A stretch of 64,000 nucleotides of DNA from Sphingopyxis macrogoltabida (GTDB lineage Bacteria; Pseudomonadota; Alphaproteobacteria; Sphingomonadales; Sphingomonadaceae), in assembly GCF_001307295.1 (NCBI RefSeq), contig NZ_CP012700.1, positions 3,909,001 through 3,973,000 on the forward strand. Reading direction: 5' to 3'. Position 1 is the stretch's first letter, and the number at the start of each line of letters is the position of its first letter. A program made the translations under genes and the position numbers. Below the pieces are notes generated by a model. It searched no databases, was not told the DNA's origin, and saw only the letters and a list, made by a program, of their open reading frames with translations. Positions 2,411 to 24,486 of this stretch are shown piece after piece.

Positions 2411-2463
2411 ACTTCGCCTTCTTTCACTAGGTTGATGGCCCGAACATGCAATCGTCTAGGGCT

Positions 2464-4221: not shown

Positions 4222-4491
4222 AACCGGTTTGATGACCGAGGAAGGCAACACCCTAGTAATTTCTCGGAACGAATTGAGATGGGGCGATTGTGACAGCGCA
4301 AAAGCAGTTGGCGCTCGTGCCGCGCACCTACATCGAGCCGATCTCCGGAAAATCCCTGAGTCGGGGAAACGGTCCGGCAATGGGGCGAATGGCACCCCAG
4401 CCGAACGGCCTTGCGATTGCGATTCGGACCCGGCGCCTTATCTTGTCCGGGTAACGCCGTGCGCTCGCGCGGCGATTGGGAAAGATTCCGC

Positions 4492-8255: not shown

Positions 8256-9050
8256 TCAGATCACGGGCTGCGGGCAGATCGGCCTGTCCAGCGGATAGTT
8301 TCCCAGACCAAACATCGCATTTCGTTGCAAAGTCAAATCATTGAGGTCAGCCGTCCAGTAGAGCTTTCCCGGCATATTCGTGTTGAAGCCACCTGACATG
8401 AACACTTGGCGAGAAATGGAGTTTGTGCTGCATTCGCCGATGAGGTTGGAGGAAATGCAGGGCATCAGGCATTGAACCGAGCGCAAAAAATCAGTGTACC
8501 GGGCGGCTTGTTGTGACCAGACAAATGTATCGTGTCCCTGAAAAACCGTCACATCTGTGGGAGCGCCATAGCGTTTCGCAAGGAATTGCCTAAAATCAGC
8601 GCGCTCGATTAAGGGGATTTCTTCCCATAGAACGATACGAGACACCCGCCTTTCGCCGTTCGCAAGCGCTGCATAAAAAAGTCCGACCTTGGTGTTTTGG
8701 GAAGGATGAATATAGTCCGCTTCCAGAACTTGTGCTTCACCAAGAATCCGTGCCGGAGTTTTGAATGGAGCGCGCCTCAAACCGTGTTTTTCTAATTCTG
8801 CTCGCGCATCTGCGAGCCGCATCGAAATTCGGGCTCCAAAAATCGAAACGTCACGAAGCTTAGACATGGAATAACCGGGACCTTGAGCATCACTAGCCTT
8901 CGTGGGCAGTACCAACGGCGTGGAGCCAGCGACAGGCCCGTCTCCTATCGAGACTGGCACAGCCAAGTCGCGCTTATCCCCAGTCTGAGCGAGCGAAGGC
9001 TGAACCATCAGTAGAATTGCTGATGCCGTCGAGTTCAAGGTCGTTCGCAT
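8256..9050 (-). CDS. Hypothetical exported protein
   Basis: 264 residues. The N-terminus MRTTLNSTASAILLMVQPSLAQTGDK has a plausible Sec signal peptide with cleavage after SLAQ or SLA. The mature part has no motif I recognise; it holds several aromatic, basic segments (YIHPSQNTKVGLFYAAL, RRVSRIVLWEE) and four cysteines, two of them close together (CLMPCISS), that may form disulfides in the periplasm. The gene stands alone between intergenic regions. Its translation is less GC-skewed than neighbouring shadow frames, which supports it as real. No function is proposed. Confidence 0.6.
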   Translation of the reverse strand: MRTTLNSTASAILLMVQPSLAQTGDKRDLAVPVSIGDGPVAGSTPLVLPTKASDAQGPGYSMSKLRDVSIFGARISMRLADARAELEKHGLRRAPFKTPARILGEAQVLEADYIHPSQNTKVGLFYAALANGERRVSRIVLWEEIPLIERADFRQFLAKRYGAPTDVTVFQGHDTFVWSQQAARYTDFLRSVQCLMPCISSNLIGECSTNSISRQVFMSGGFNTNMPGKLYWTADLNDLTLQRNAMFGLGNYPLDRPICPQPVI

Positions 9051-9455
9051 ATTTCCGCCTTTTCTTGTCGAGGCATTGCTAGACCCGAAGGGTTAAGTGC
9101 GAATAAAAATGGCCGTTTGGAGACCAGCCGGTTCTGGCGGTAAATCCTGAAAAGCAGCCCTTGGATCACAGTTCGGGCAGACCGCAATCAATCGGTTGTA
9201 GGTCGTTGCATCGGCCTCGCTCGCCTACGCGTAGTTATGAACTGCTTACGCGCCATCTGCCCGGCGCGCCTCCACCGCATTTCCGCGGCAGCCCAATCCG
9301 AGCCATTTGCGGGTATCGAGGTTTCGCGAACGTTGCGATCCGCTTTACGACCTGTGTGCAAGGACCGACGGAAATTGCTCCTGTTACGCGATGTGGCCGA
9401 CATACACAGCGCGTCGAAACTGGGCATTTACGGATTAGCGTCTAACGTCGGGATC
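9051..9455. other. Stretch without a supported gene upstream of the 9456 gene
   Basis: The frame of the following gene is open from 9237, but the residues before 9456 are arginine-rich and unlike a protein. Promoters for the divergent exported-protein gene and for 9456 should lie here. I see no repeat or RNA gene. Confidence 0.35.
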
Positions 9456-9992
9456 ATGATGCACGGCCCGACAGATATGTGGAATGACGACAACGCCATC
9501 TACGACGATGGTGAGTGGATCACATGGACGGAAATCAATTCGCATCTTGAACGGCTCGAGTTCCAAGCGCGCTTCCCGAACCTTGACGTCGATCTGGTAC
9601 CGATCTTCCAACGCCTGCTCAAAGCTGCTGCGGATTATCATGAACTCACCGGGCGCCATCTGCAGGTCTATGGTGACATTGGCGAACTTTATGGCGCGAT
9701 CACCTATGGCATAAAGCCGCACCGGATATACGCGCAGGGCTCCGACGGCAAACTCGGGAATGACTTTGTCGAGGTGAAGACGATCACACCGTTCAAGACG
9801 ACGGAGACCGTAACGCTCAACCTTAAGGGCAATTTCAGCAAGGTGCTGATCGTGAAGATCGACGCCAATTTCGAGGTCGAAGGCAAGCTTATTGATCGCA
9901 AAGCGCTGCCCAAGACAAACCGCGATATGCTGTGCCTCGAGTGGGCGGACTTTCCATCCTCGCCGCACCAAGCGCCGGCCGCGCGATCCTGA
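9456..9992 (+). CDS. Unknown protein with a possible PD-(D/E)XK nuclease-like core
   Basis: 178 residues from the tandem ATG at 9456/9459 (MMHGPTDMWNDDNAIYDDGEW); the frame extends to 9237 but the added part looks non-coding. The central block GDIGELYGAITYGIKPHRI, then GSDGKLGNDFVEVKTITP, contains an upstream Glu and the D-(x)-EVK pattern of PD-(D/E)XK folds; EVK is the classical third motif. The C-terminus FSKVLIVKIDANFEVEGKLIDR fits a beta-rich continuation. No methylase or toxin partner is adjacent. It could be a nuclease, a decayed restriction-like protein or a non-catalytic family member; I cannot choose. Confidence 0.6.
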   Translation: MMHGPTDMWNDDNAIYDDGEWITWTEINSHLERLEFQARFPNLDVDLVPIFQRLLKAAADYHELTGRHLQVYGDIGELYGAITYGIKPHRIYAQGSDGKLGNDFVEVKTITPFKTTETVTLNLKGNFSKVLIVKIDANFEVEGKLIDRKALPKTNRDMLCLEWADFPSSPHQAPAARS

Positions 9993-10155
9993 TCTCATTC
10001 ACAGAACGGCGCTCCATCCAGCAGACGAACGACCAGCCGCATCGACCAAAATCGAGGGAAAAAGGTCGATTGCATCAAACCGGAAATAAACGCCCTCGCC
10101 GCCCGGTTGCCCGTCACCGATAGCTGCCCATCATCTTCATCCGCGCGCCTCGCTG

Positions 10156-10281
10156 TCAAAACAGCGGCCGAACGATGCCCCACAGCCCGATCAGGACATG
10201 GCTGCCGACGATGAGGAAAGCGAACCACAATTCGATGGTGAACGCGAGCTTGCGCCATTTGCCCTGTTTGTCGCCTCTCAT
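10156..10281 (-). CDS. Small single-pass membrane protein (41 aa)
   Basis: Starts MRGDKQGKWRKLAFTIELWF and ends GLWGIVRPLF. A basic N-terminus precedes one hydrophobic segment (ELWFAFLIVGSHVLIGLWGIV), as in single-span small membrane proteins. The upstream ribosome site is weak. The reading depends on composition alone, and it could be the tail of a decayed gene. It stands by itself in a stretch otherwise empty from 9993 to 10633. Confidence 0.4.
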   Translation of the reverse strand: MRGDKQGKWRKLAFTIELWFAFLIVGSHVLIGLWGIVRPLF

Positions 10282-10633
10282 GCCAGGAATATGCCAGCTT
10301 CGAGTCGTGCAGAAAAGCCGGATGGCGAAAAGATTCGAGGCTGCTGACCGTAGGCGGCAAACGAACCGGATGCGGACCTAAATCATGAAAGCCCGATCCG
10401 CAGCGATCACCTCCATATTGGCAGCATATTGATGCCAAAACAGCGCAATTCGGCAGACCGAGCAGTCTCGCGACGCAAAGCTTCCACCGATAACCCAGAA
10501 AATGCATTGAAATTTGCGTCACGGTGCCCGCGAATCCTTTCGCGTAGCGCGTGCCGTCGAGCCTTTGGACGATGAGCAACAGAAAAAAAAGCCTTTTTGC
10601 CGCAACGACACTTATGGTTAATTGACCCTTGCG
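10282..10633. other. Gene-free stretch upstream of the LuxR-type gene
   Basis: No frame has protein-like composition. An A-rich tract (CAGAAAAAAAAGCC) near 10580 lies about 50 bp before the LuxR-type start and may be part of its promoter region. Nothing else is seen. Confidence 0.3.
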
Positions 10634-11173
10634 ATGCAGACGGACCAAGACTCGAAACCGAACGCCGGTGAATTCGAATTGCTGACCGCAAAGCAGACTG
10701 CCGTGTTACATTTGTTGGCTCAGGGCCGAACGAGCAAGGAGATTGCGGGGCTTCTCGACACGGGCGAGTCAGCTGTCAACCGCCATATCGAGATTATGAG
10801 ATCGCGTCTGGGTGGGATAACTCGCCTCGAGCTCGCCCGACGTTACCGTAACGCATGTCCGGATGCCCCGTCCGTGTTACGTGTAGATTCTTCTCAGCAA
10901 AAAATTGATCTCGTCGCGCCGCCGCCAACCGACGAAAGACCGGATCGGGACGACGCCGAAGCCGACCTCCTCTTTCAGGACTCGCTCACGATGAAAATCG
11001 AAGCGCCCTGGGCGGGACAGGAAGAACCGGTGGTCGTCCCCAGGGTGCTCGACGGCGCAAATGCCACGCTCACCCGTGGTGCGGCGATTACGATCATGGT
11101 GACATCGATCCTCGCCAGCCTGGTGCTCGCTATCACGGCGGCCTGGGCGATCACGGAAGCGCTTGGCGGCTAG
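10634..11173 (+). CDS. LuxR-type HTH protein with C-terminal transmembrane anchor
   Basis: 179 residues from MQTDQDSKPN. The N-terminal third is a LuxR/GerE helix-turn-helix: LLTAKQTAVLHLLAQGRTSKEI, then AGLLDTGESAVNRHIEIM and SRLGGITRLELARRYR. An acidic linker (about 75-145) leads to one hydrophobic helix, AAITIMVTSILASLVLAITAAWAI, near the C-terminus. The DNA-binding domain would therefore be tethered to the inner membrane. I infer a membrane-associated regulator; there is no receiver domain, so it is not a classical response regulator. It heads a same-strand run of five genes to 13022 (spaced by 64 bp or less, the last ones overlapping). Confidence 0.75.
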   Translation: MQTDQDSKPNAGEFELLTAKQTAVLHLLAQGRTSKEIAGLLDTGESAVNRHIEIMRSRLGGITRLELARRYRNACPDAPSVLRVDSSQQKIDLVAPPPTDERPDRDDAEADLLFQDSLTMKIEAPWAGQEEPVVVPRVLDGANATLTRGAAITIMVTSILASLVLAITAAWAITEALGG

Positions 11174-11237: not shown

Positions 11238-11576
11238 ATGAATATTCCTGTTCCTGCCTATATGGCGCGCATCCGTAGTCAGATCCGCGACGCCGAAGCG
11301 AAAGCCGACGAAAGCCTGCTAGCAAAACTCACGGTCATGAGCGCGATCCTCCGGGCTCGGCAGGCGGAAGACCTGCCGGCACCGCATGTCGGCCAAGAGG
11401 CGATTATCCGCCTCGGGCGCGCCATCCAGTCGGATATCAGCGGCGCGAACGACGTTTTCCGATCGCACAATGCGCTCGTCGACGACAAGACGCTGATCAC
11501 CGGTATGCCGGGGCATGACGATACCCAGCGGTTCAGCCCCACGACGGGAGAAGGCGGCCGCCAGGCCACAGCCTGA
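11238..11576 (+). CDS. Hypothetical soluble protein
   Basis: 112 residues, MNIPVPAYMARIRSQIRDAEAKADESLL... A charged helical first half is followed by a Gly/Asp-rich C-terminus. No motif or signal recognised. The segment ARIRSQIRDAEAKADESLLA could form a coiled coil. It lies 64 bp after the LuxR-type gene and 38 bp before a membrane-protein gene on the same strand. Confidence 0.5.
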   Translation: MNIPVPAYMARIRSQIRDAEAKADESLLAKLTVMSAILRARQAEDLPAPHVGQEAIIRLGRAIQSDISGANDVFRSHNALVDDKTLITGMPGHDDTQRFSPTTGEGGRQATA

Positions 11577-11614
11577 CGGTTGACGATGCTGCCGCGCCGG
11601 TCCAGTCCGGCGGG

Positions 11615-12112
11615 GTGAGCATCTTATGGTCCTTCAATTTCATTTGGGTCCTCGCCCTTTGCGCAGCAGCGCTGCGCTGGGGCGCGGCTCCCGAGCGGAT
11701 TTGCGCGGCGACGCTTCTCGGGATGACCGTCGGCGACCGTCTCTATCATATCCTCGTCGGGCGGAACACGATCTACGGTTCGGTCGATATCGGCCACCTG
11801 ATCATCGATCTTCTCGTCGCGGCGATCTTCACCGGCGTCGCGCTCCGGGCGAACAGGATCTATCCGCTATGGCTCTCGGCATTTCAGCTCGTCTCGGTCG
11901 CCTCGCATTTCGCCCGCGAAGCGAGCGGCAAGATGTCGGTTATCGCTTATGTCCTGTTGAATTACGCGCCCTATTACTGCATCCTGCTGATCCTTACCGG
12001 CGGGATCTGGGCGCATGCGACCCGGACGAAGCGTTACGGGGCCTACCGGCCGTGGCGCGCCTCCTCGAACCCTTCGCGGGCAACCGAGCCGAGGCGGCGG
12101 CCGGCCAGCTGA
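11615..12112 (+). CDS. Multi-pass membrane protein of unknown function
   Basis: 165 residues from a GTG at 11615. About four hydrophobic segments are visible (FNFIWVLALCAAALRWG, a weak one around ICAATLLGMTVGD, HLIIDLLVAAIFTGVALRA, YCILLILTGGIWAHA). The C-terminus is basic and Pro/Arg-rich, and its end overlaps the start of the RadC gene. I recognise it only as a type often found beside RadC-like genes in sphingomonads, without a known role. Confidence 0.6.
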   Translation: MSILWSFNFIWVLALCAAALRWGAAPERICAATLLGMTVGDRLYHILVGRNTIYGSVDIGHLIIDLLVAAIFTGVALRANRIYPLWLSAFQLVSVASHFAREASGKMSVIAYVLLNYAPYYCILLILTGGIWAHATRTKRYGAYRPWRASSNPSRATEPRRRPAS

Positions 12113-12636
12113 TCGCACATTTCGGAAGTCTCGGCCGCGCGATCGCAGCGCCCCGCGAACAGCTCGACCTCGCCCTCGGGGGGAATAGCGACCTCGTCCA
12201 CGTCATCACCGCAGCTCGCGCCCTCGTCACCGGCGGGTTACTCGAGCAGATAAGTCGCACACCGGTTTCTGTCGGCGATCCCGCATTCGGCGCCTATCTG
12301 CGCGCGCGTATCGGAAAATCTCCCACCGAATGCCTGCACGCCACCTTCGTGACCTATGACTGGCGGTATCTTGGCGACGAAATATTGGCGGAAGGAACGA
12401 GCCGGCATGTCGAGGCCGATCTGCGGCGCCTGCTGAGCCGCGCCTTTGATCTTGCCGCGCAGGGCGTGATCCTTGCCCACAATCATCCATCGGGGTCCGC
12501 AGAGCCGAGCGCGGAGGATATCGTGTTGACCCTCCGCATTTCATCGATCGTCGGCTCGGTCGGCGTGAAGCTGCTCGATCATCTGGTGATCGGTGCCAAC
12601 GAGATCGCCAGCATGCGGGAAAGGGGGCTGCTGTGA
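12052..12636 (+). CDS. RadC-family protein (JAB/MPN domain)
   Basis: 194 residues from a GTG at 12052 (MARLLEPFAGN...), overlapping the upstream gene by 61 bp; the frame is open further upstream but that part is in the shadow of the membrane-protein gene. An N-terminal helix-hairpin-helix-like part (IAHFGSLGRAIAA) is followed by the JAB metal motif: a Glu within GDEILAEGTSRHVEAD, then AHNHPSGSAEPSAED (HxHP-x-G-x-x-P-S-x-x-D). The motif HNHPSG and the following Asp are intact. RadC proteins were once tied to DNA repair but their activity is unsettled; in accessory DNA they often mark mobile or stress islands. It overlaps the next gene by one base (TGATG). Confidence 0.85.
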   Translation: MARLLEPFAGNRAEAAAGQLIAHFGSLGRAIAAPREQLDLALGGNSDLVHVITAARALVTGGLLEQISRTPVSVGDPAFGAYLRARIGKSPTECLHATFVTYDWRYLGDEILAEGTSRHVEADLRRLLSRAFDLAAQGVILAHNHPSGSAEPSAEDIVLTLRISSIVGSVGVKLLDHLVIGANEIASMRERGLL

Positions 12637-13022
12637 TGCAGGAGAAGGAAGCCTTTGCCGCGATTGCGCAAAGCGAGTTTCACAGTCGCCGGCGCCGCAA
12701 CAGCCTCATCCGCCATGACCTCTTCGCGGAGCCGGCCTGGGACATTCTGCTTCTGCTTTACATTGCCCACCACCGCGATCAGACGATGGAGGTCGGGCGT
12801 CTCTGCACGGCGGTTTCGGTCGCGCCAACCACTGCACTTCGCTGGATCGGACAACTCCTCGACCGCGGGCTCGCTAAGCATCTCGCTCCCGACTCCGCGC
12901 AAGGTGACGTGCATATCCTCCTCAGCCCCTGCGGCATCGAAGAGATGGAGCGCTATTTGCGCGATTTCCTGCACCGGGAACGGCTCGGTGACGATCTGGA
13001 CCGCTACTTCCGCGAGCCCTGA
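12636..13022 (+). CDS. Winged-helix (MarR-like) regulator, paralogue of the 7086 gene
   Basis: 128 residues. RRRRNSLIRHDLFAEPAWD, then a helix pair and VGRLCTAVSVAPTTALRWIGQLLDRGLAKHLAP match the block order in the 7086-7643 protein but without its N-terminal coiled coil. The wing (GDVHILLSPCG) and a C-terminal helix (EEMERYLRDFL) complete a small MarR-like fold. It probably binds DNA. Its start overlaps the RadC stop, so it is translationally coupled to that gene. The two paralogues 5 kb apart suggest a local duplication or two related accessory modules. Confidence 0.7.
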   Translation: MQEKEAFAAIAQSEFHSRRRRNSLIRHDLFAEPAWDILLLLYIAHHRDQTMEVGRLCTAVSVAPTTALRWIGQLLDRGLAKHLAPDSAQGDVHILLSPCGIEEMERYLRDFLHRERLGDDLDRYFREP

Positions 13023-13053
13023 AGATAGCGGCGCGCCGAAGCAGCACGGCTGG

Positions 13054-13938
13054 TCAGCGGCGCGTCACCAAGATGGCAGCGCCTTCGCTCCCGTAGGTGC
13101 CGCGGCGTTCGACGATCGACAGCGTCACAGGAACAGGCAAACCTTCGCGCGAAAGCAGTTCCGACGCCTGTCGTAACGGCGCTCCGGTGCGAAAGAGTGT
13201 TCCGATAGCCTCGGCGAACTGATTGCGTGCGGCGAGTGGAAGCAGGGCTGAAAAACGCACGCGGCGTATCGCTTGCTCATTGGCCCCGATCATCTCCGCC
13301 AGCGCGGGATTGGCATATTCAATCGTCTCTCGAACCGAAAGCAACGCGTGTCCGATACCGCCATCGATGTCGAGGGCACGGATTACCGCATGCTGCGCAT
13401 CTGCAGCTTCACGCGCCAGAATCGTTTCGCTGATATCGCGCAGGACGATAGCACCGCCCACCGGCAAGGGGATCAGGTCGGCGCGGAGCCACTGACCAGG
13501 ACGCAGCAAAGACGGCAACTCTCCCGTAAAGCGCTCGCGATGATCGATCATCCTCAGGATATGAGGAAAAAGGACGCTTGTCTCGAGCGTCGGCAGAGCC
13601 GCCACCAGTGGCCGCCCGACGAGACTGCTCGCTGCGATTTCGAACATGTCACTTGCCGCGGGATTGAGCGCAGCGATGCGTTGCTCGCGATCAATCAGTA
13701 TCACGCAGTCGCGGACAGATTCCATAAGTAGTATCTGCGACTCTTGGAGACGTCCGTTTCCGGACTGGCAACCATCGCTGCCAAGTCGGCGATAGTCGTC
13801 GAGCGATATCAGCACATGCGCATCTTTGCCATGATGCGTCACGACCACAGGCCTGCGCGCCGATTGGAGGCGCCAGCTTGCGAAGCCGCGAATGAAGTCT
13901 GCCGCCGACACTCGGTCGGGAATCTGCCCGTGCCTCAT
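13054..13938 (-). CDS. PAS-domain protein with Phd/YefM-like N-terminus
   Basis: 294 residues from MRHGQIPDRVSAADF; the upstream in-frame extension is not protein-like. Residues 1-50 read VSAADFIRGFASWRLQSA, then RRPVVVTHHGKDAHVLISLDDYRRL, which matches the DNA-binding half of Phd/YefM-type antitoxins (S-x-A-x-x-F-x-x-x-x, P-V-x-V-T-x-x-G-x-x-x-x-V-L-x-x-x-D-Y). Two PAS-like domains follow (ESVRDCVILIDREQRIAALN and SVRETIEYANPALAEMIG) with an S-box-type segment (VLRDISE). No toxin, kinase or output enzyme is attached. It is divergent from the TonB receptor of the lasso locus, and I infer that it is a regulator of that promoter. Confidence 0.7.
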   Translation of the reverse strand: MRHGQIPDRVSAADFIRGFASWRLQSARRPVVVTHHGKDAHVLISLDDYRRLGSDGCQSGNGRLQESQILLMESVRDCVILIDREQRIAALNPAASDMFEIAASSLVGRPLVAALPTLETSVLFPHILRMIDHRERFTGELPSLLRPGQWLRADLIPLPVGGAIVLRDISETILAREAADAQHAVIRALDIDGGIGHALLSVRETIEYANPALAEMIGANEQAIRRVRFSALLPLAARNQFAEAIGTLFRTGAPLRQASELLSREGLPVPVTLSIVERRGTYGSEGAAILVTRR

Positions 13939-14309
13939 TATCCCTCCACACGTCCAGTTCCACGGTACTAGGCCGGAAAACAAGTGCCAGATACTATTGC
14001 ATCCATCCTGTTGTCGAATTGGACCAATCGTTCCGTCGCCAATGCTGCATTCTCCGCTCTGCCATTGGCTTCCGGATTTGCAGTCTGGGCTGAACATCGC
14101 TTGATCGCGCTCACAAAATGTTGCGGATATGTGCTGTCACACTGAGGCGCCCTGTTACGCTTCTCGACCAGGCAACCGAAAGTCGGCCCTCCCCTGGCCC
14201 ATCTGCAGCGAAAAAATCTTCGAAGCTCACTAGGGTTTCCGCTCTCTCGCCGTCTTTCCCCTTTGCCGGCCGTGCAACCCGCGCACGGCCCAACGATGAA
14301 GGGGGAAAT
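13939..14309. other. Divergent promoter region of the lasso receptor and PAS genes
   Basis: No supported gene. The frame of the TonB receptor is open from 14118 but the residues before 14310 are Arg/Ser-rich. A strong Shine-Dalgarno-like AAGGGGGAA ends a few bases before the receptor ATG. The Phd-like protein, if it binds DNA, would act here. Confidence 0.4.
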
Positions 14310-16847
14310 ATGTCCGGAAAATCTCAGTCGCTCGCGGCGCTGATGGCGGGCGCCGCGATGGCGCTGACGCCGGGGACGGCACACGCATTCCAGCAAGAGC
14401 AGCAAAGCTTCAACCTGCCGCGGCAGGATCTCGGCGATGCGCTACGTAGCGTCGCCGCCCAGGCGGGGATCGAACTCTATGTCTCGGCCCGCGATCTCGA
14501 GGGTCGCACGTCATCGTCGCTTGTCGGGAGAATGACTGCACGCGAAGCCATCGACGGGCTAATTCGCGGAACCGGCCTCGTAGCGCGTTACGAAAAGGGC
14601 GCGGTCATTATCGCAGGGCGATCCGCGGCCGAAACGCCGGACGAGACTCCTCCCGAGGAGATCATCGTGACCGGCACGCGGATCGCGGGCGCGCCCGCGG
14701 CGGTGCCAGTCACCCGCGTCTCGGCCGAGGACATCCGGAACGGCGGACAGACCGATCTTGGCGAGGTTGCGCGCAGCCTTCCGCAGAACTTCGGCGGCGG
14801 CCAGAATCCCGGCATCGGCAACAGCCAGGGCGCTCCCAACGAGAATGCCAATGCTAATGGAGCGTCGACCTTCAATCTGCGCGGCATCGGCTCCAACGCG
14901 ACGCTGACCCTGCTCAACGGCAATCGTTTCGCCTACACCGGCGTCTCCTCGGTCATCGACGTGAGCGCGATCCCGGTGTCGGCGGTCGAGCGAATCGAGA
15001 TCGTCGCCGACGGCGCCTCGGCAATCTACGGCGCCGATGCAGTCGCGGGTGTCGTCAATATCCTGCTAAAACGCGACTATGATGGTCTGTCGGCGATGGC
15101 GCGCGTCGGCGGCTCGACCGACGGCGGCAATGTCCAGCAACAATATGGCCTGCTCGGCGGCAAGAGCTGGGCGTCGGGCGGCCTGCTCGCCGCCTATGAC
15201 TATAGCCGCTCCACCGCGACCAAGGCCGGAGATCGCGATTATGCCGTTGCCGCCAATCCCGACACGACGCTCTTCCCGGCGATCTCGCGCCACTCGCTGC
15301 TGGTGAGCGGCCATCAGGCCATCGGACCCGACGTTACCCTTGCCGCCGATCTTCTCTATAAGAAGAGCCGGCTGCGCTCGGCGACGGGTTACAGCCTCAC
15401 AATCCCGCCCGACGAGTTCGGGCTCGACAATCTCAGCACGTCCGAGATTTTCGGGATCGCGCCGAGCCTGACCGCCGAACTCGGCGGCGACTGGCGCTTC
15501 AAGGCGAGCGGCTTCTTCGGCACCGACCGCACGGGCGGTTTCACCGATCTCTATTTCGGCGGCGACCTTCTGCAGCGCACTGACAAGCATTTCTTCAACC
15601 GCAACCTCGCGCTCGAAGCGGGCTTTCAGGGACCGCTGTTCGAACTTCCGGCGGGCGACATCCGAATCGCCTTCGGCGGCGGCGCGCGGCGCAATCATTT
15701 CTTCGCCACGTCGCCGACCGGCGACGTCGAGCGGCGGCGCGACAATATCTTCGCTTATGGCGAACTCCTCGTTCCCCTTACCTCCCCCTCACAGGACATC
15801 GCCGGACTGCACCGCCTGGCGCTGACCGGCGCGCTGCGTTTCGAGGATTATTCGGACGCCGAGAGCATCCTCACCCCGAAACTCGGGATGGTCTGGGAGC
15901 CTGTCGAGATGCTGCGTCTCGGCGCATCCTGGGGCCGCTCGTTCAAGATGCCGACGCTCTATCAGCAATATAGCGGCTATTCGGCGGTGCTCGCACGCGC
16001 TGCACGCTACGGCAGCGGTTATCCGGCAAGCGCTGATATCGTATTCGCTGCCGGCCCCGACAGCCGGATCGGGCCCGAGCGGTCAAAGAACCTGACCCTG
16101 AGCGCCATTCTCACGCCCGCGCGCGGCCTCGAACTGACCGCCGCCTGGTACCGGATCGATTACCGGGACCGGGTCGCGACACCGATCCCGTCGCTGTTCG
16201 GCGTGCTCGACAATCCCCTCTACGCCGATCTCGTGACATTGAGCCCCGGCGCCGCTGACCTCGAGGCGATTATCGACGGCGCCCTCCTCGGGCTCGAGAA
16301 TGGCGCGGGACGTCCCTACAATCCCGCCAATGTCGTCGCATTCATCGACGCGCGCGATCGCAATATCGCGCGTCAGCGCTACTCGGGGGTCGACCTCGCG
16401 ATGCGCTACAACATCAATCTCGCGAGCGGCAAGGAGCTGACGCTTTCGGCTGCGGGGAGCTTCCTCAAAAGCCGCCAGCAATTGCTTCCCGGAGCCGCGT
16501 GGACGCGTCTTGCCGGCACGCTCTTTCATCCGGCGCACTTTCGCGGGCGCGCGGGCGTGACCTACGGCAGCGAGCGCTTCTCGCTGTCGGGCTTCTTCAA
16601 TCATATGAGCGGGCTCGACGACGACCGGCAGGCGGTACCAGTGCGGATCCCCGCCTACACCACGGTCGACCTGACGGCCCGGGCGCGGATCGGGTCGGGC
16701 ACCGAAATCTCGTTCGCTACGCTCAACCTCTTCGACAGAAAACCGGCTGCGATCTCGACCGCGCTGCCCGCCGACACACCGTTCGACACGACCAATTATT
16801 CGGCGGCAGGACGCTTCGTCGGCATCACCGTCCGGCAGGAGTGGTGA
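14310..16847 (+). CDS. TonB-dependent receptor with STN domain (lasso-peptide locus)
   Basis: 845 residues from MSGKSQSLAALMAG, preceded by AAGGGGGAA. A signal peptide ends near PGTAHA. Residues 30-110 form a secretin/TonB short N-terminal (STN) domain (FNLPRQDLGDALRSVAAQAG, ... YEKGAVII), the type that signals through anti-sigma factors. A TonB box (EEIIVTGTRI) leads into the plug (LRGIGSNATLTLLNGNR and YGADAVAGVVNILLK) and a beta-barrel ending GITVRQEW. The isopeptidase gene starts 2 bp after its stop. In astexin/sphingopyxin clusters this pair takes up and opens lasso peptides. No FecI/FecR gene is adjacent, so the STN domain has no visible partner here. Confidence 0.88.
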   Translation: MSGKSQSLAALMAGAAMALTPGTAHAFQQEQQSFNLPRQDLGDALRSVAAQAGIELYVSARDLEGRTSSSLVGRMTAREAIDGLIRGTGLVARYEKGAVIIAGRSAAETPDETPPEEIIVTGTRIAGAPAAVPVTRVSAEDIRNGGQTDLGEVARSLPQNFGGGQNPGIGNSQGAPNENANANGASTFNLRGIGSNATLTLLNGNRFAYTGVSSVIDVSAIPVSAVERIEIVADGASAIYGADAVAGVVNILLKRDYDGLSAMARVGGSTDGGNVQQQYGLLGGKSWASGGLLAAYDYSRSTATKAGDRDYAVAANPDTTLFPAISRHSLLVSGHQAIGPDVTLAADLLYKKSRLRSATGYSLTIPPDEFGLDNLSTSEIFGIAPSLTAELGGDWRFKASGFFGTDRTGGFTDLYFGGDLLQRTDKHFFNRNLALEAGFQGPLFELPAGDIRIAFGGGARRNHFFATSPTGDVERRRDNIFAYGELLVPLTSPSQDIAGLHRLALTGALRFEDYSDAESILTPKLGMVWEPVEMLRLGASWGRSFKMPTLYQQYSGYSAVLARAARYGSGYPASADIVFAAGPDSRIGPERSKNLTLSAILTPARGLELTAAWYRIDYRDRVATPIPSLFGVLDNPLYADLVTLSPGAADLEAIIDGALLGLENGAGRPYNPANVVAFIDARDRNIARQRYSGVDLAMRYNINLASGKELTLSAAGSFLKSRQQLLPGAAWTRLAGTLFHPAHFRGRAGVTYGSERFSLSGFFNHMSGLDDDRQAVPVRIPAYTTVDLTARARIGSGTEISFATLNLFDRKPAAISTALPADTPFDTTNYSAAGRFVGITVRQEW

Positions 16848-16849
16848 TA

Positions 16850-19021
16850 ATGGCGAGGCCTATTCTCCTCGCCGGCGCGGCACTGATTTCTGGCGTGATG
16901 CTGACATCCCAAGCGCTCGGCAGCGAGCCAGAGCGCGTGTGGACGCTCGACGATCAACTGTCCATCCCCGAGGTTCGCGCGATCGCGATCGCCGCCAACG
17001 GCAAGAGCGCCGCCTATGTCGTGCGCATTGCCGACCGTGAGAGCGACCGCACCGATGCGATCCTGCGGCAGGTCGATCTGGCGAGCGGGGCGACGCGCGA
17101 CCTGCTTCGGGCGCGATGGATCGACCAGCTCAGCCGTATTCCCGGCACAGCGGACTGGAGCGCGCGGATCGACAAGGGCGACGGCGTGCAGCTCTACCGG
17201 ATCGAGCCGACAGGCACGGTGATGCCGCTCGTCGTTCACCCGGCAAGGGCGATCTTCGGCGACAGCGAAGGCGCCGTCTTTCCCGGCTATGGGCATGCGC
17301 CGCTCCCGACCGGCGTCCGCGCGCATAGCTGGTCGCCGGACGGGAAGCGCCTCTTCTACGTCACCGTCGATGCCGCGCCGCCCACCAAGTCCGTCCGCTA
17401 CGACAGCGACGTGACCGCCGAACGCGCGCGGCGGCGATCGCCGGGTCAGGCAACCGCATCGATCTATCTGCGCGAACCGGACGGGACAGATCTCTTGCTC
17501 GGGATGCGTCCGCAGAGCGATCTCACCACCTTCTTCGACCGGAACCATGTGCGCTGGGAGAAGGACGAAGTCCGATATGATGTCATGGAGGCAGGTGCCG
17601 ACGGCCAGCAGAAGGTCGTCACCATGGCCTGGGGCTTCGCCGACCGAAAGGCCCGCCTGCTCGATCCCAAGGTCGAACGCGTCTATTGGCTGCTCGCCGG
17701 ACCGAACGGCGGCAAGCTTTCTTCGCAAGGCAATGGCGATACGCGCGAGCTCGTCGAGACGCTGCCCGGCGACAAAACGCGAAGCTACGGAAATTTTGCC
17801 TTCGCGGTCGGCGATGGACGCGCGGTCGGCGGCTTCCGCTCGCGGGACGGCAAGCGCGCGATCACCGGCACCCGGACGATCGATGCCCCCCGCTTCGGCC
17901 TCGCGGTGGTGGAGAATGGGGCCGTGCGCAAGATCGGAGGCGAGCAAAGCCTGAACCTCTGCGATTTCGGGCCGACGCTTGAACATGGCGCATGCATCGC
18001 GCAAGGCCAGGCCGCACCGCCCGCGGTCGTCGCGGTCGATGTGAGCAGCGGCAAGATTAGGCGGGTCGCATCCGCGTCGCCGGCCCATGAGGCGATCACG
18101 CCGCTGACGATCGAGCCACGCACTTGGACCAACCGGCACGGCTACAAGGCGACCGGCTATATCGTCTGGCCGCGCGGATATGAGAAAGGCCAGCGCTATC
18201 CGGCAATTGTTGTGACCCACGGCACCGATGCCGACGATCGCTTCGCCAATCGCGAGAACCAATGGGAATATCCGGTCCAGCTCTTCGCGGAACGGGGATA
18301 TGTCGTGCTGCTCGTCAATGATCCCAGCTCGCGGCAAAATGCGGAAATCAGCGCGGCCTATGATGCGTGGATCAACGAAACCCGCGATCTGCCGCCCGAG
18401 ACGCTTCAGCAACTGATCTGGCTCAATGGCGTCGCGAGCTATGAGGATGCGGTGAAGGAACTGGTCGACGCAGGCGTCATCGATGCCGCGCGCGTTGGGA
18501 TCGCGGGTTACAGCCGCGGCTCGCAGATGGTCAATGTGACGATGACGAACTCGCATGTCTTCCGGGCGGCTTCGAGCGGTGACGGCGGCTATCTGGAGCC
18601 GGCCTTCTATGCCGACATCGCGGGATCCTATGACGCGGTGTTCGGGGGACCGCCGACCGATCCCGCAGCTCTCGTGTATTATCGCCGCCTCTCGCCATCG
18701 CTACGTGCGAGCGAGGTGTGCGGCGCCATCCTGCAGCAGGTCGCCGCGCCCTACGTGCCGTCGATCGACCTCTATACCGCACTCCGCAAGGCCGGCGTGC
18801 CGACGCAGCTCAGCCTCTATCCCGGCGAGGATAGCGCCTCCGACGAGACGCATATCTTCCACATCCCCTCGAACCGGATCGGCGCGATGCAGGAGAATAT
18901 CGCCTGGTTCGACTATTGGCTGCTCGGCAAACTTGACCCCGGATCACCCGTCGCCGAGCGCTACGCATTCTGGGACAAGATGCGCGCGGCATCGCCGCGC
19001 TGCGACGGTCCGGACGGATAG
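16850..19021 (+). CDS. Lasso peptide isopeptidase (S9 prolyl-oligopeptidase family)
   Basis: 723 residues. N-terminal signal (ILLAGAALISGVMLTSQALG), a beta-propeller-like region with repeated strand motifs, then an alpha/beta hydrolase domain. The nucleophile elbow is GYSRGSQ (Ser555) where ordinary S9 enzymes have GxSxGG; the catalytic His is likely H668 in SDETHIFH, and the acidic member is one of the nearby Asp/Glu. AtxE-type enzymes hydrolyse the macrolactam isopeptide bond of threaded lasso peptides in the periplasm. Assignment rests on family features, on the short gap (2 bp) after a TonB receptor and on the neighbouring precursor and cyclase. Its 3' end overlaps the 3' end of the cyclase gene by 61 bp. 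Confidence 0.85.
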   Translation: MARPILLAGAALISGVMLTSQALGSEPERVWTLDDQLSIPEVRAIAIAANGKSAAYVVRIADRESDRTDAILRQVDLASGATRDLLRARWIDQLSRIPGTADWSARIDKGDGVQLYRIEPTGTVMPLVVHPARAIFGDSEGAVFPGYGHAPLPTGVRAHSWSPDGKRLFYVTVDAAPPTKSVRYDSDVTAERARRRSPGQATASIYLREPDGTDLLLGMRPQSDLTTFFDRNHVRWEKDEVRYDVMEAGADGQQKVVTMAWGFADRKARLLDPKVERVYWLLAGPNGGKLSSQGNGDTRELVETLPGDKTRSYGNFAFAVGDGRAVGGFRSRDGKRAITGTRTIDAPRFGLAVVENGAVRKIGGEQSLNLCDFGPTLEHGACIAQGQAAPPAVVAVDVSSGKIRRVASASPAHEAITPLTIEPRTWTNRHGYKATGYIVWPRGYEKGQRYPAIVVTHGTDADDRFANRENQWEYPVQLFAERGYVVLLVNDPSSRQNAEISAAYDAWINETRDLPPETLQQLIWLNGVASYEDAVKELVDAGVIDAARVGIAGYSRGSQMVNVTMTNSHVFRAASSGDGGYLEPAFYADIAGSYDAVFGGPPTDPAALVYYRRLSPSLRASEVCGAILQQVAAPYVPSIDLYTALRKAGVPTQLSLYPGEDSASDETHIFHIPSNRIGAMQENIAWFDYWLLGKLDPGSPVAERYAFWDKMRAASPRCDGPDG

Positions 19022-20739
19022 CCCGCCTCCTCCCACCAGCGGACCCAAGCCTCGGCCGCCGCGAAGGTCAGTATCCGGTGATCGCGGCCGTCATCCCGCC
19101 ATGCTCCCTCGCCCGCGCGCGCCAGCGATTCGGGATCGATCAGCCCCGCCTCGACGAGCCGCCCGCCGCGCAGCATCGCGATGGCCGTCTCGCCCTGCGC
19201 GACGAACACGCGCCGGATGAAGCCGCTCGGACTGCCCTTCGTGCGGCGTTCGAGAATGAGGTCGGGGAGCAAGCCTTCGAAGGCCTTGCGCGCGACCGCA
19301 CGATCGCGGCCGCCGCGCACCCAATACCAGGTCGGGATCGACAGGCAGAGTTCGACAATCGGCTGCGACAATAAAGGCGAGATCTGTGGCGGCGCCGCGC
19401 TGCGCGGATAGAGTTCGATGCTTTTCTGCGCGCGGGCAAGCATCGCGACATGCGCCGCCTTGCCCGGCAGCGTTCCCGGCGGCGCCGTGAGCCAGGGATG
19501 GCGATCGCTCTCGTCCATCGCTGCCGCGCGTCCGACGGGGCCAAGGCCACTCAGGTCGCGACGGGCACGATGCCCCGCCCTCCTTCGGCGGACACGCTCC
19601 CAGCCTTTCGCCGCCACGGCGACCATTCCCGATCCGGTGAGGTCCGCAAGGTCGCGCGCGGTTTGCAGAAGGCCGGGCCGGAGACTGCGGGTGAGGAAGC
19701 GATCAGCGAGCGGAACTGCACTACGCAGACCACAGAAGATATTGTCGCCGCCATTGCCCGAGAAATAGGCATCGACCGGGCCGTCCAGCCTCGCGTGCTC
19801 CGCCTCGATCGCGTGAAAGAAATGCAGCGCGAAGGGCAACGGCAGATGCGGGAGCACCGGCTGCGTAACATCGACGGCGGCGATTTCATAGACTGGCGCA
19901 TCGAGCCGTACACCGAGTTTGCCGACAAGCGCCTCGGCATAGCGCCGTTCGTCGCCGTCGGTTCCGGGCTCGACCATCGACAGGCATCTAAGGCCCGGCG
20001 TGCGCGGGCCGAGCGCGGCGGCGACGATCGAACTGTCGAGCCCGCCCGATACGCCGACCAGAATCTTGTCGAAGCAGGTCGACCAAGCGCCGATGCTGTC
20101 CTTAAGCGTGACGCGCAGTGCGGCGGCCACTGTATCGAAATTCGATCCGGCAGGGGGCCCTACATGATCCCATGGGGACCAGGCCTGTTCGATACGACTT
20201 CCCGACGACGTAACGATCAGACGCTCGCCGGGGAAGAGTTCCTCGATCCCGGCGATACCCGTCTGGCGTCCGATCACGTCGATGCCAGCGAACATCCGTG
20301 CGAGCGCGGCATAGTCAACCGCGACGGCACCCGGCTTGGCAAGCGCCGTCATGTCGCTCGCGAGCGCGATGCCCGCAGCGCCGCGCCGCATATAGCAAGG
20401 CATCATCCCGGAAGGGTCGCGCAAGACCGAGAGTCCGCCATCCTCACCGATGAACAGCGCCACATATCCGCCCCAATAATCGGCAAGCAGTGCGTCGCCG
20501 TTCGTATCCAATATGCTCTGCCGCTCGGCGGGAGGGAGCTCGGTAACGCGCGTCGTGGGGACGTCCCGCCGAAACAGCGCCCCGACAATAAAGCCCCTCT
20601 CGCCAAGGTCGATCCGGGGGGCATCGCTCCATAGCCTCGCGGCGCGCACCTCATATGCCGATGAACCGGGTTCGGCATGATGGTCGGTGTGCGCCGCGAG
20701 GCCGGACGGCGCGATATCGAGGCGGAAGGCTAACCTCAT
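18961..20739 (-). CDS. Lasso peptide cyclase (asparagine-synthetase homologue, C protein)
   Basis: 592 residues from the ATG at 20739 (MRLAFRLDIAPSG); its first bases overlap the stop of the B gene (ATGA). The N-terminal half resembles the glutaminase-like domain of asparagine synthetases but lacks the catalytic Cys2, as expected for lasso C proteins that do not use glutamine. The synthetase half has the pyrophosphate loop VGVSGGLDSS (about 228-237), then YFSGNGGDNIFCG and further conserved asparagine-synthetase segments. Function: ATP-dependent activation of the ring Asp/Glu side chain and closure of the isopeptide bond with the N-terminal Gly of the processed precursor. The frame is intact. 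Confidence 0.88.
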   Translation of the reverse strand: MRLAFRLDIAPSGLAAHTDHHAEPGSSAYEVRAARLWSDAPRIDLGERGFIVGALFRRDVPTTRVTELPPAERQSILDTNGDALLADYWGGYVALFIGEDGGLSVLRDPSGMMPCYMRRGAAGIALASDMTALAKPGAVAVDYAALARMFAGIDVIGRQTGIAGIEELFPGERLIVTSSGSRIEQAWSPWDHVGPPAGSNFDTVAAALRVTLKDSIGAWSTCFDKILVGVSGGLDSSIVAAALGPRTPGLRCLSMVEPGTDGDERRYAEALVGKLGVRLDAPVYEIAAVDVTQPVLPHLPLPFALHFFHAIEAEHARLDGPVDAYFSGNGGDNIFCGLRSAVPLADRFLTRSLRPGLLQTARDLADLTGSGMVAVAAKGWERVRRRRAGHRARRDLSGLGPVGRAAAMDESDRHPWLTAPPGTLPGKAAHVAMLARAQKSIELYPRSAAPPQISPLLSQPIVELCLSIPTWYWVRGGRDRAVARKAFEGLLPDLILERRTKGSPSGFIRRVFVAQGETAIAMLRGGRLVEAGLIDPESLARAGEGAWRDDGRDHRILTFAAAEAWVRWWEEAGYPSGPSQRGDAARILSQNA

Positions 20740-21286
20740 CGCACCGTCAGCAAGGGCGTAAAATTGACGACCCGGTCGAGCGGGTCGCTGAGCACGGTCG
20801 TGCCCGACTGGAGCCAGCAATGGGCCGTGAAGGGAAGCATTACCCCGACCACGAGATCGGCGGCGAGACCCCGGCGCGCCAGCATGGCGCGCATAGCAAG
20901 GCCACGCGCGAGGCATTGGTCGGTTGCGTCGCGGTAGCGCGATACGCGCTCGATCGCTGCTGCGATGGGGCGGCACCGGTCGGGATCGGCGGCCGAGCCG
21001 GGAACGACTGAGGCTTCGAGAAGCGCGCCGAGCGAATGATGGGCGAGACGTCGGCGGGCGCGGGATTGCCCCGCGATCGCTTCGAGGAGCAGCCACGGCC
21101 GCGGCGTCCCCAGACGTCGGTCATGCAGACTGGCGACCGGCGATGGCGCGCTGGCGCGCCCCGCCTGCGAGGCGCCAGGTTCGATCAGCCCCTGCTCAAG
21201 GAGCCAGGCCAGATCATGCGCGCTCGCTGTGCCTTCGGCAAAGGCCGTAAGGCACGCCGCTCCCGCCCCTTCAAGGAGAAAGTAGC

Positions 21287-21295
21287 GGCTTGCCG
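21287..21295. repeat. Target-site duplication, left copy
   Basis: GGCTTGCCG directly before the IS left end; identical to 23819-23827. Both lie in the B reading frame, and one copy is lost in the reconstructed gene. Eight or nine bases fits the family's usual 4-8 bp duplication plus one possible chance base. Confidence 0.85.
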
Positions 21296-21355
21296 TGAGG
21301 ATCAGCGTGCAATAGGCACCCCCTTCGTGGGGTGATCGGCGTGCAAAAAGGACCC
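21296..21355. repeat. IS21 left terminal region with two repeat units
   Basis: Outer unit TG...AGCGTGCAATAGGCACCCCC (21296-21323), inner unit GATCGGCGTGCAAAAAGGAC then CCC (21333-21355). They match the right-end units in inverted orientation. Confidence 0.75.
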
Positions 21356-21410
21356 CTTCATCCCGGGGATTTAGTCGGCCGACTGGTTTTGATCAGTTGG
21401 CGAGAACGGG

Positions 21411-22925
21411 ATGTTGATCGTGGAGACAGTGGTTCGGATTCGGCGTGAGCATGCAGCGGGTAAGGCGATCAAGGCGATCGCTCGTGACCTTCGTTTGTCG
21501 CGGAAGGTCGTCCGCAAAGCGATCCGGTCGCCGGAGGCGGCGTTCAACTATCAGCGCAAAGTCCAGCCGCTGCCGCGGATCGGTCCTTATCAGGATCGTC
21601 TCGATGCGCTGCTTGAGGAGAACGAAGGTCGCGGCCGCCGCGATCGGCTACGGATGACGCGTATCCATGACCTGCTGGTGCGCGAGGGGTTCGATGGATC
21701 CTATGATGCGGTGCGCCGCTATGCGGCGCGCTGGCGTGCTGCGCGGCGGAAGGATGCTGGCGAAGGCGCACCGGCGTTCATCCCGATGACCTTCCAGCCG
21801 GGTGAGGCCTACCAGTTCGACTGGAGCCACGAGGATGTGGAGATCGCCGGCAAGCCGATGCGGGTGAAGGTGGCGCATATGCGTCTCTGCGACTCGCGCG
21901 CACCCTATGTCCGGGCCTATCCGCGCGAGGGCCAGGAGATGCTGTTCGATGCCCATGCCCGGGCGTTCGCGTTCTTCGGCGGTGTGCCGCGACGCGGTAT
22001 CTACGATAATATGAAGACGGCGGTGACGGCCGTGTTCACCGGCAAGGAGCGTGTGTTCAACCGCCGCTTCCTGATCATGACCGATCATTACATGGTCGAG
22101 CCGACCGCCTGCTCGCCGGCGGCGGGATGGGAGAAGGGCCAGGTCGAGCAGCAGGTCCAGACGATCCGAGGCCGCTTCTTCCAGCCGCGACTCCGGTTCG
22201 CCAGCCTGGCCGAGCTCAACGGGTGGCTGGAGGCCGAGTGCCGGCGCTGGGCCGAGCATCATGCCCATCCCGAACGCGGGGATATTACCGTCGCCGAGGC
22301 GCTGGATATGGAGCGACCGGCCCTGCAGCCGATCCTGGCACCGTTCGACGGCTTCCATGAGAGCGAGCATGCCGTCACCGGCACCTGCCTCATCAGCTTC
22401 GATCGCAACCGCTACTCGGTCATGTCGACGGCCGCACGCCGGACCGTTCAGGTGCGCTCCTATGCCGATCGCATCGTCATACGCTGCGGCGATGCGATCG
22501 TCGGGGAGCATGAGCGCCACTTCGGTCGGAACCGCACGATATACGATCCCTGGCATTATCTGCCGGTCCTCGCGCACAAGCCCGGCGCGCTGCGTAACGG
22601 CGCACCGTTCCAGGACTGGGATCTGCCGCCCGCCCTGCACCGATTACGGCGAAGGCTCGGCACCGGGGACGAGGCCGATCGCAGGTTCGTGCGGGTCCTC
22701 TCGGCGGTGCTCACCGATGGCCTGGAGCCGGTAGAGGCTGCCGTGCGCGAAGCGTTGGCGAACGGAACGGCCAGCGACGAGCTGATCCTCAACATCCTCT
22801 CCCGGCGCCGCGAGCCGGCGACACCCCACAGCATCGTCACTTCGGAAGACCGGATGCTGCAGCATCCTCCGCTCGCCGACTGTGCCCGCTATGATCTGCT
22901 GCGAGGCTATGATGCAGCGGCATGA
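21411..22925 (+). CDS. istA: IS21-family transposase IstA
   Basis: 504 residues ([14 protein letters not shown]...). The N-terminal helix-turn-helix ([20 protein letters not shown]) binds the element ends. The DDE catalytic core has Asp in [12 protein letters not shown], Asp in [12 protein letters not shown] and Glu in [14 protein letters not shown]-terminal beta-barrel-like region follows ([12 protein letters not shown]). Works with the IstB ATPase in cut-and-paste or circle-mediated transposition. Frame intact; the stop overlaps istB by 14 bp. Confidence 0.95.
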
Positions 22926-23640
22926 TATGATCGACACGATGCGCGGCCTCGGACTCAAGGGCATGGCGGCGGCGTTCGACGAGGCGGTCACCACCGGCCT
23001 CCAGCGCAAGCGCACCACCATGGAGATACTGACCGACCTGCTCCGTGCTGAGGCGACCCACCGGGATGCAGCCTCCATCCGCTATCGGATGACGGCTGCG
23101 AGGCTGCCCGTGGTGAAGGACCTGGAGCGGTTCAGCTTCGAGGGCACACCGATCAATGAGGAGATGATCCGCTCCCTTCACGATGGCTCCTTCCTCCCGC
23201 CTCGCCGCAATATCGTGCTGGTCGGCGGCACGGGGACAGGCAAGACCCACCTCGCCATCGCGATCACCGCCAATGTCGTGCGAAGGGGCGCTCGCGCCCG
23301 CTACTTCAACACCGTCGATCTGGTGACACGCCTCGAAGAGGAGACCCGGATCGGCAAAGGCGGGACCCTGGCGGCGCAGCTGTCGCGGCTCGACCTGATC
23401 GTGCTCGACGAGCTCGGTTATCTGCCGTTCGCCCGCTCGGGAGGGCAGTTGCTGTTCCACCTCATCAGCAAGCTTTATGAGCGGACCAGCGTCATCATCA
23501 CCACGAACCTCGCCTTCGGCGAATGGCCGACCGTGTTCGGCGATCCCAAGATGACCACGGCGCTGCTCGACCGCGTCACCCACCACTGCGATATCGTCGA
23601 GACGGGCAACGACAGCTGGCGCTTCAAAAACCGCAGCTGA
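22912..23640 (+). CDS. istB: IS21-family helper ATPase IstB
   Basis: 242 residues from [15 protein letters not shown]+ ATPase of the DnaC/IstB type: Walker [12 protein letters not shown], Walker [10 protein letters not shown], and the sensor region [29 protein letters not shown]. It overlaps the istA stop. It assists target capture for IstA. It is intact, so the element may still be mobile. Confidence 0.95.
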
Positions 23641-23766
23641 CAGCCACCTTCGGCGCCTTCAAAAATCTATCTTGCGCTGCGCGCGCCTCCGGTCGGGCTA
23701 CGCCCGCCCTCCGCCGCACGCAGCGCAAGGCCATCTTCAACAAACCAGCATCATATTATCCGAAAA

Positions 23767-23818
23767 GGGGGTCCCTCTTCGACGCCGATCGGGGGTCCCT
23801 TTTGAACGCCGTTTGACA
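23767..23818. repeat. IS21 right terminal region with two repeat units
   Basis: Read on the minus strand: TGTCAAACGGCGTTCAAA and AGGGACCCCC, then GATCGGCGTCGAAGAGGG and ACCCC. Inverted relative to the left end. Confidence 0.75.
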
Positions 23819-23827
23819 GGCTTGCCG
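23819..23827. repeat. Target-site duplication, right copy
   Basis: GGCTTGCCG directly after the IS right end, matching 21287-21295. Confidence 0.85.
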
Positions 23828-23925
23828 CTAGATCGAGGAAGATCGCGCGCGCGCCGATCAGGCAGTAGCTGAGGTCAGCGCGGAGGCGGTAGCCGGTCAT
23901 GCGGGATAGCTCTACGAGCGCGTGC

Positions 23926-23951
23926 GTGCGGCACCGCTGGCGGTGCCGCAC
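23926..23951 (-). promoter_or_regulatory. Perfect hairpin between lasso precursor and B gene
   Basis: GTGCGGCACCGC and GCGGTGCCGCAC are exact inverted repeats separated by TG, a 12-bp stem lying 11 bp after the precursor stop and 25 bp before the B start. Hairpins at this place are known in lasso operons, where they help keep precursor mRNA abundant relative to the enzymes. No T run follows, so attenuation or 3' protection is more likely than full termination. Confidence 0.7.
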
Positions 23952-23961
23952 GCCCATCGCG

Positions 23962-24096
23962 TCAATCGTCGGTCTGGATGCCGGCGTTGTACGTCCGCTG
24001 GAACGTCTGGATGTCCAGCGGGCCGAGTTCGCCGGTGCCGCGGGTTTCGACACGGGCATCGCCAAGATCGACGATGCTGTTTTCACTCTTGTTCAT
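23962..24096 (-). CDS. Lasso peptide precursor (A), 44 aa
   Basis: Leader MNKSENSIVDLGDARVETR (1-19) carries the Thr at position -2 required by lasso proteases (leader ends ETR). The core starts at Gly20; the ring segment GTGELGPLD gives Gly1 and Asp9, so a nine-residue macrolactam is predicted; the tail runs IQTFQRTYN and ends AGIQTDD (core 25 residues). The layout matches class II lasso peptides; from memory sphingopyxin I also has an LGP-x-D ring end and a GI...DD terminus. Phe13, Arg15 and Tyr17 are possible steric plugs. A GAGAGAG Shine-Dalgarno precedes the ATG. It lies directly before the hairpin and the B and C genes. Confidence 0.9.
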   Translation of the reverse strand: MNKSENSIVDLGDARVETRGTGELGPLDIQTFQRTYNAGIQTDD

Positions 24097-24486
24097 GTTT
24101 ACTCTCTCTACCATATCGCGACCCGGGATTGAGTCGCAATGAGAGCATATTACTGAAATTTTATATATTAATTTTATAATCTAATTATAATTGAAATATA
24201 TTCAGATTATTTTTATCTTTGGAATTACCTTAATTATTGCTTCCAAATATCTTTACCAACCCTGTCTGATCATTCGGGTTTTTTCATCCGGTCTCTCGAT
24301 CAGACTCAATCTACATTAGAGTCCGACCAAGGCTGCATCTGCATTTATCTCCGCGCAGACATCAGGCCGAATGGATGAATCTGCTCGCACCTCGCTCGTC
24401 GCGTTCATCAATGTCCTATGACGTTCGCCCAGAACTCACGCGCGACTCGAATTTGAAATCGAGCCTCTAGAGCATCTCTCAAATCC
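24097..24486. other. AT-rich intergenic region, probable lasso promoter
   Basis: About 24140-24245 is strongly AT-rich (runs of TATATTAATTTTATAAT type) in an otherwise GC-rich window. Read leftward, TAATAT about 45-50 bp before the precursor ATG could be a -10 element, but no single -35 stands out. Rightward of 24260 nothing gene-like is seen before the palindromes at 24487. Confidence 0.45.

Follow-up and report, generated by a model that had tools for sequence, protein, structure and literature searches.

Isopeptidase-type lasso peptide clusters, among which that of sphingopyxin I is the closest described to the locus considered here, are recognised by a dedicated isopeptidase and an adjacent TonB-dependent receptor. 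A 2022 review (PMC9266682) calls the biological role of such peptides enigmatic, and a part of it also describes a GntR-type regulator before the precursor gene A and a sigma/anti-sigma pair near the receptor. The sphingocin cluster of Sphingomonas BPH, as presented in part of one study (PMC11006600), has the order A-B-C, with an isopeptidase and a TonB receptor nearby and no transporter, as does the locus analysed here, though its core differs; the same part of that study reports that a laboratory transposon in sphingocin B accompanied loss of phenanthrene use. Benenodin-1, whose family model also bears upon this locus, is given a ring of eight residues in an excerpted account (PMC13352647).

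Here the window (i.e., the whole 64,000-nucleotide stretch of Sphingopyxis macrogoltabida DNA that was analysed) is compared with these systems. It carries the following features, in which aa denotes the length of the encoded product and a dot the absence of a strand:

14310..16847, +, TonB-dependent receptor, 845 aa, intact frame (STN match just below Pfam's cut-off)
16850..19021, +, isopeptidase E, 723 aa, intact frame (aligns with solved chain 5jrk over residues 10-718)
18961..20739, -, lasso cyclase C (asparagine-synthase-like), intact frame
20736..21295, -, C-terminal piece of maturation gene B, with the Transglut_core3 / lasso B2 domain
21287..21295,., left copy of the 9-bp flanking repeat GGCTTGCCG
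21296..23818, +, IS21-type element, 2,523 bp (istA 21411-22925, istB 22882-23640)
23819..23827,., right copy of the 9-bp flanking repeat GGCTTGCCG
23819..23900, -, N-terminal piece of B, about 27 codons
23962..24096, -, lasso precursor gene A, 44 aa (leader 24040-24096, core 23965-24039, stop 23962-23964)

The minus-strand translation of gene A, which runs through 44 codons as MNKSENSIVDLGDARVETR followed by GTGELGPLDIQTFQRTYNAGIQTDD and the stop, agrees in each particular with what an earlier note on this DNA had read there: a 19-residue leader ending in ETR, with Thr at position -2, and a 25-residue core, GTGELGPLD-IQTFQRTYNAGIQTDD, in which Gly1 and Asp9 are followed by a 16-residue tail. 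The core contains no cysteine, and the predicted monoisotopic mass of the mature peptide is 2691.2776. An alternative in-frame ATG at 24114, 18 nt upstream of the A start, would yield a 50-aa product. Upstream of A a promoter scan found none on the minus strand; between A and B lies a perfect 14-bp inverted repeat (23924..23953, minus strand), and folding of ten relatives predicts a hairpin there in every one (two of the ten being identical, and the hairpin of region L037 being weaker).

Precursor A is real and correctly read, and is more than a chance open frame, given its matches to eight database proteins and in 26 of 80 Sphingopyxis genomes. The eight were returned at E ≤ 1 by a search of about 5.8 billion proteins, with identities of 70-95% and a best match at 6.5e-19 (95% identity); the 26 Sphingopyxis genomes have a contig match at E ≤ 0.01, the weakest of these being sphingopyxin-I-type precursors at E ~0.001-0.004. 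When one pattern from alignment A2 (22 precursors) was scanned across genome contigs, nine loci were found, seven from Sphingopyxis and two from Proteobacteria/Alphaproteobacteria MAGs. In draws across the whole family, 2 of 249 genomes (the source genome and one other) matched the precursor and 3 of 248 matched the isopeptidase (at most four candidates being scored per genome); five genomes of the genus are among those named in the rows shown for these draws, the rest being unlisted. A search for plasmid-borne relatives of A gave no match, nor did A alone as a query against solved chains, and the window core, the P0002 core, three core pieces and one leader piece are absent from the text of the open papers searched. 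Regions L037 (6185-6535), L040 and L041 each hold two tandem precursor genes.

Against Pfam's Subterisin family (PF24178) gene A scores 25.1 bits (E 1.8e-5), below the curated cut-off of 27, and against NCBIfam's benenodin model (NF033522) it matches over residues 5-43 with 32 bits (E 8.4e-08), below the cut-off of 33; because both scores fall just short, A would likely have escaped listing on this account. Its kinship with the Subterisin family is nonetheless evident from alignment A1, all nine members of which match that model at E ≤ 0.01, and from the precomputed Pfam label Subterisin on six of the eight database relatives. The description of the gene as previously unlisted thus applies at most to its exact sequence, since close relatives are known, and this peptide is an additional member of a known lasso type that is common in Sphingopyxis.

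The cyclase, isopeptidase and TonB receptor that had been placed beside A are all present, the latter two being encoded on the opposite strand, convergent with A-B-C. The presence of a dedicated isopeptidase and an adjacent TonB-dependent receptor assigns the locus to the isopeptidase (sphingopyxin I) type of cluster. E aligns with solved chain 5jrk, which we take to be the sphingopyxin I isopeptidase, at 665 bits over residues 10-718 and retains the GYSRGS and DETH motifs; against the NCBIfam Atxe2 model it scores 172.7 bits, far under the cut-off of 400. An open reading frame at 16796-18556 on the minus strand was considered as the isopeptidase and ruled out, for it has no Pfam match and the gene sits on the plus strand. 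The 3' ends of the convergent C and isopeptidase genes share 61 bp (18961-19021). Among the neighbouring frames scanned, which were not every frame, there is neither a GntR-type regulator before A nor a sigma/anti-sigma pair near the receptor; a LuxR-type regulator occurs among them at 10622-11173. Two serine recombinase genes adjoin at 731-4395.

When pieces of the window were compared by tblastn with 18 regions fetched from relatives, A, B, C, E and the receptor were found in the same convergent order in 16 of them; the regions giving no match to E or the receptor are L036, which is eroded and reaches a contig end, and L048, in which A, B and only residues 1-194 of C are matched. In 13 of the 18, the start of B adjoins the rest of B in frame, while in L039 and L046-L049 the 27-residue B start is unmatched.

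What the earlier note had taken for a split leader peptidase is instead one B gene interrupted by an IS21-type element. The assignment of the element is based upon its istA/istB pair, its sharp ends and its target repeat; the Mu-transpos_C_2 and IstB_IS21 scores lie above the Pfam cut-offs, and the rve score of istA lies below. Collinearity with the nearest relative, G014, extends over 11555-21295 of the window and resumes at 23821; the element is absent from that relative, and the break points map to adjoining G014 positions (L032 9750 and 9744). The element was inserted near codon 27 of B, a gene of about 210 codons in G014. A natural B1/B2 split was ruled out, inasmuch as B is interrupted precisely at the termini of a repeated IS21-type element and is contiguous in relatives, for example in Sphingopyxis sp. 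H050, LC81 and S. witflariensis DSM 14551. In the source genome 40 of 183 candidates were scored, which revealed at least nine element copies fully identical along a 1,001-bp probe and one more with 83% identity. Seven other copies that were fetched share the same element ends (one extending by one base on each side), and a flanking repeat is evident, within the 12 bases printed, in only one of them (8 bp, L056). Because the element copies are identical the break looks recent, and the insertion into B probably is so.

The interruption falls in the N-terminal part of B, presumably the leader-binding region, though a Pfam match for a leader-binding domain was found neither here nor in B of three relatives. 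Within the distal B frame no ATG, GTG or TTG occurs before 20894, and this first such codon comes after the Cys that we presume, as in other lasso B proteins, to be catalytic; a CTG is available at the beginning of that frame. B is probably not functional in this strain.

Divergence from G014 is unevenly distributed along the window. Two flanking genes have dS values of 0.027 and 0.056, whereas the corresponding values are 0.68 for the C-terminal part of the receptor, 0.85 for the isopeptidase, 0.69 for C and 0.55 for the B piece; for A, dN is 0.020 and dS 0.187, with only 44 codons compared. Measured per 500 bp, identity to G014 (L032) declines within the receptor gene, near 16,000, from 93% to 83%; values of 77-89% persist across the lasso block, and between 24.5 and 30 kb identity is 92-98%. 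Because it is reduced at 30-31 kb and past 38 kb as well, the lasso block is not the sole variable stretch. Such a distribution suggests that the lasso block was likely exchanged by recombination. The dN/dS ratios of 0.09-0.15 for the receptor, E, C, the B piece and A indicate that purifying selection acted on all of these before the break.

The observed gene order, homology, conservation and element site point to the following reading, to which a probability of roughly 0.8 is assigned: the locus would be an isopeptidase-type (sphingopyxin-I-like) cluster in which A encodes a lasso peptide with a nine-residue ring and in which B has been broken by an IS21-type element, the strain probably being a non-producer. 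From this perspective A would give the 44-aa precursor; B would bind the 19-residue leader and remove it; C would link the amine of Gly1 to the side chain of Asp9, forming a nine-residue ring threaded by the tail; and the TonB receptor would import the peptide, after which E would open the isopeptide bond. Ring closure, threading and uptake are predicted steps of this scheme, as is the lack of product in this strain, where the element breaks B within its presumed leader-binding part, so that A and C would probably be idle, while the receptor and isopeptidase frames are intact. With B broken, production by this strain is improbable unless the B of a second lasso cluster helps in trans.

Such a cluster, sphingopyxin-like in type, does exist in the same genome: an uninterrupted second B domain lies at C1:438683-439006 (L050; about 438.7 kb, on the same contig as the window), beside its own C, isopeptidase and receptor and a precursor with the core GIEPVGPRDEDTNEHFLLVGGITAED. 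Conceivably, the B of this cluster cuts the window leader in trans and the local C closes the ring, in which case the peptide would still be made, and the leader of the second-cluster precursor does share a DLG...VETR pattern with the window leader. Yet the second B is only 36.7% identical to the window B piece, and lasso enzymes can be cluster-specific, the precedent concerning E rather than B: as reported in part of the review, of 24 lasso peptides tested the sphingopyxin I isopeptidase cleaved its own and no other (PMC9266682). Processing in trans is therefore judged unlikely.

Somewhat less probable still is that the strain is a natural non-producing user, i.e., that the peptide is a shared good or signal that is taken up and opened without being synthesised. 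What points that way is the broken B together with intact receptor and isopeptidase frames, along with a FecR-receptor-isopeptidase set in genome G035 (L068 292-6070, G035:C4), which is 69-70% identical to the window's and has no A-B-C of its own. Isopeptidase places number 44, in 33 of 80 Sphingopyxis genomes, and 43 of these have a B within 5 kb, the G035 set being the exception; orphan receptor-isopeptidase sets as a common pattern of the genus thus find no support. No convincing A, B or C match was seen in the sequence following the G035 set. About 2.5 kb separate this set from gene A of another lasso cluster, which has its own receptor and isopeptidase; this position counts against the user interpretation, because the set might serve the neighbouring complete cluster. 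On its other side the set is bordered by an autoinducer-synthase gene, and conjugation genes lie farther along.

Loss of production recurs elsewhere. At L036 (Sphingopyxis sp. JAI128) 10086-10970, an apparent deletion has brought B into frame with the final portion of C, the join being at a contig end and hence possibly an assembly effect; L048 (G027:C3) has, at 8683-10094, a sphingopyxin-I-like A and B with the shortened C mentioned above; and P0008 is an A-B fusion. Where C is damaged or shortened (L036 and L048), the receptor and isopeptidase are also unmatched in the fetched regions, and none of L036, L048, P0008 and G035 shows a receptor and isopeptidase kept after production was lost. 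Selective retention of the receptor and isopeptidase in this strain was likewise considered, and no conclusion is drawn, since C and the C-terminal B piece have open frames too and the break looks recent. The preferred reading remains that of a probable non-producer in which B has been interrupted.

The nature of the predicted ring may be judged from alignment A2, in which Thr(-2), Gly1 and Gly6 are invariant, Pro7 is nearly so, and core position 9 is Asp in 21 of the 22 precursors and Glu in the other; an Asp/Glu exchange there is what a ring-closing residue would allow. The second precursor of L037 has Glu in place of Asp at this position. Because Thr(-2), Gly1 and Asp/Glu9 are kept in all 22, a nine-residue Gly1-Asp9 ring is well supported by comparison of sequences. 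Gly1 together with Thr(-2), an Asp within positions 7-9, the lack of a core cysteine and adjacent B and C genes (B being interrupted in this strain) place A among class II lasso precursors, as had been proposed, and relatives lacking Gly1 or an Asp/Glu at positions 7-9, which the earlier note had named as damaging to its claim, are absent from the alignment. Another ring size, or an unthreaded branched cycle, is very improbable: topology is not readable from a sequence and a precursor among the relatives (L039) carries Asp at both 7 and 9, but in the window core Asp9 is the sole acidic residue among positions 7-9.

That both halves of B cooperate as an accidental split B1/B2 enzyme is barely credible, for although the distal frame is open with a CTG at its beginning, and artificially split B proteins retained low activity in a laboratory study known here in part (PMC5067487), the cut lies near residue 27 of about 210, where a domain border is unlikely, the first usual start codon of the distal piece comes too late to include the presumed catalytic residue, and a 2.5-kb element separates the pieces.

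Returning to sphingopyxin I (5jqf), the precursor of region L047, the core of which begins with the 5jqf chain sequence, aligns with A at 19 of 43 residues (44%) and shares Gly1, Leu5, Gly6, Pro7 and Asp9 with the window core. L047 is from the same genus and has the same convergent A-B-C / receptor-isopeptidase order as the window, and the C and E proteins of the two share 45-46% identity, B being broken in the window only; the leaders differ (GAIS in the sphingopyxin-I type, GDAR in the window), as do the tails. Profile A2 recovers 5jqf, the sphingopyxin I chain, at E 0.0024, which is not an independent test since A2 includes a row identical to 5jqf over that chain. With the three sphingopyxin-I-type rows removed, the resulting profile A3 (19 precursors) did not find sphingopyxin I among solved chains; because of this, it is the pairwise match, together with the shared cluster and the isopeptidase, that links A to sphingopyxin I. 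The earlier suggestion of a new class II lasso peptide related to sphingopyxin I is thus borne out as to the relationship but not as to novelty, given that the locus belongs with the sphingopyxin-I type of isopeptidase cluster and represents no new kind. What it adds beside sphingopyxin I is a conserved branch of predicted nine-residue-ring lassos, so far mainly from Sphingopyxis, with several intact clusters; and the naturally broken B with intact receptor and isopeptidase frames, set against these intact relatives, offers a comparison for exploring whether the peptide is exchanged between cells.
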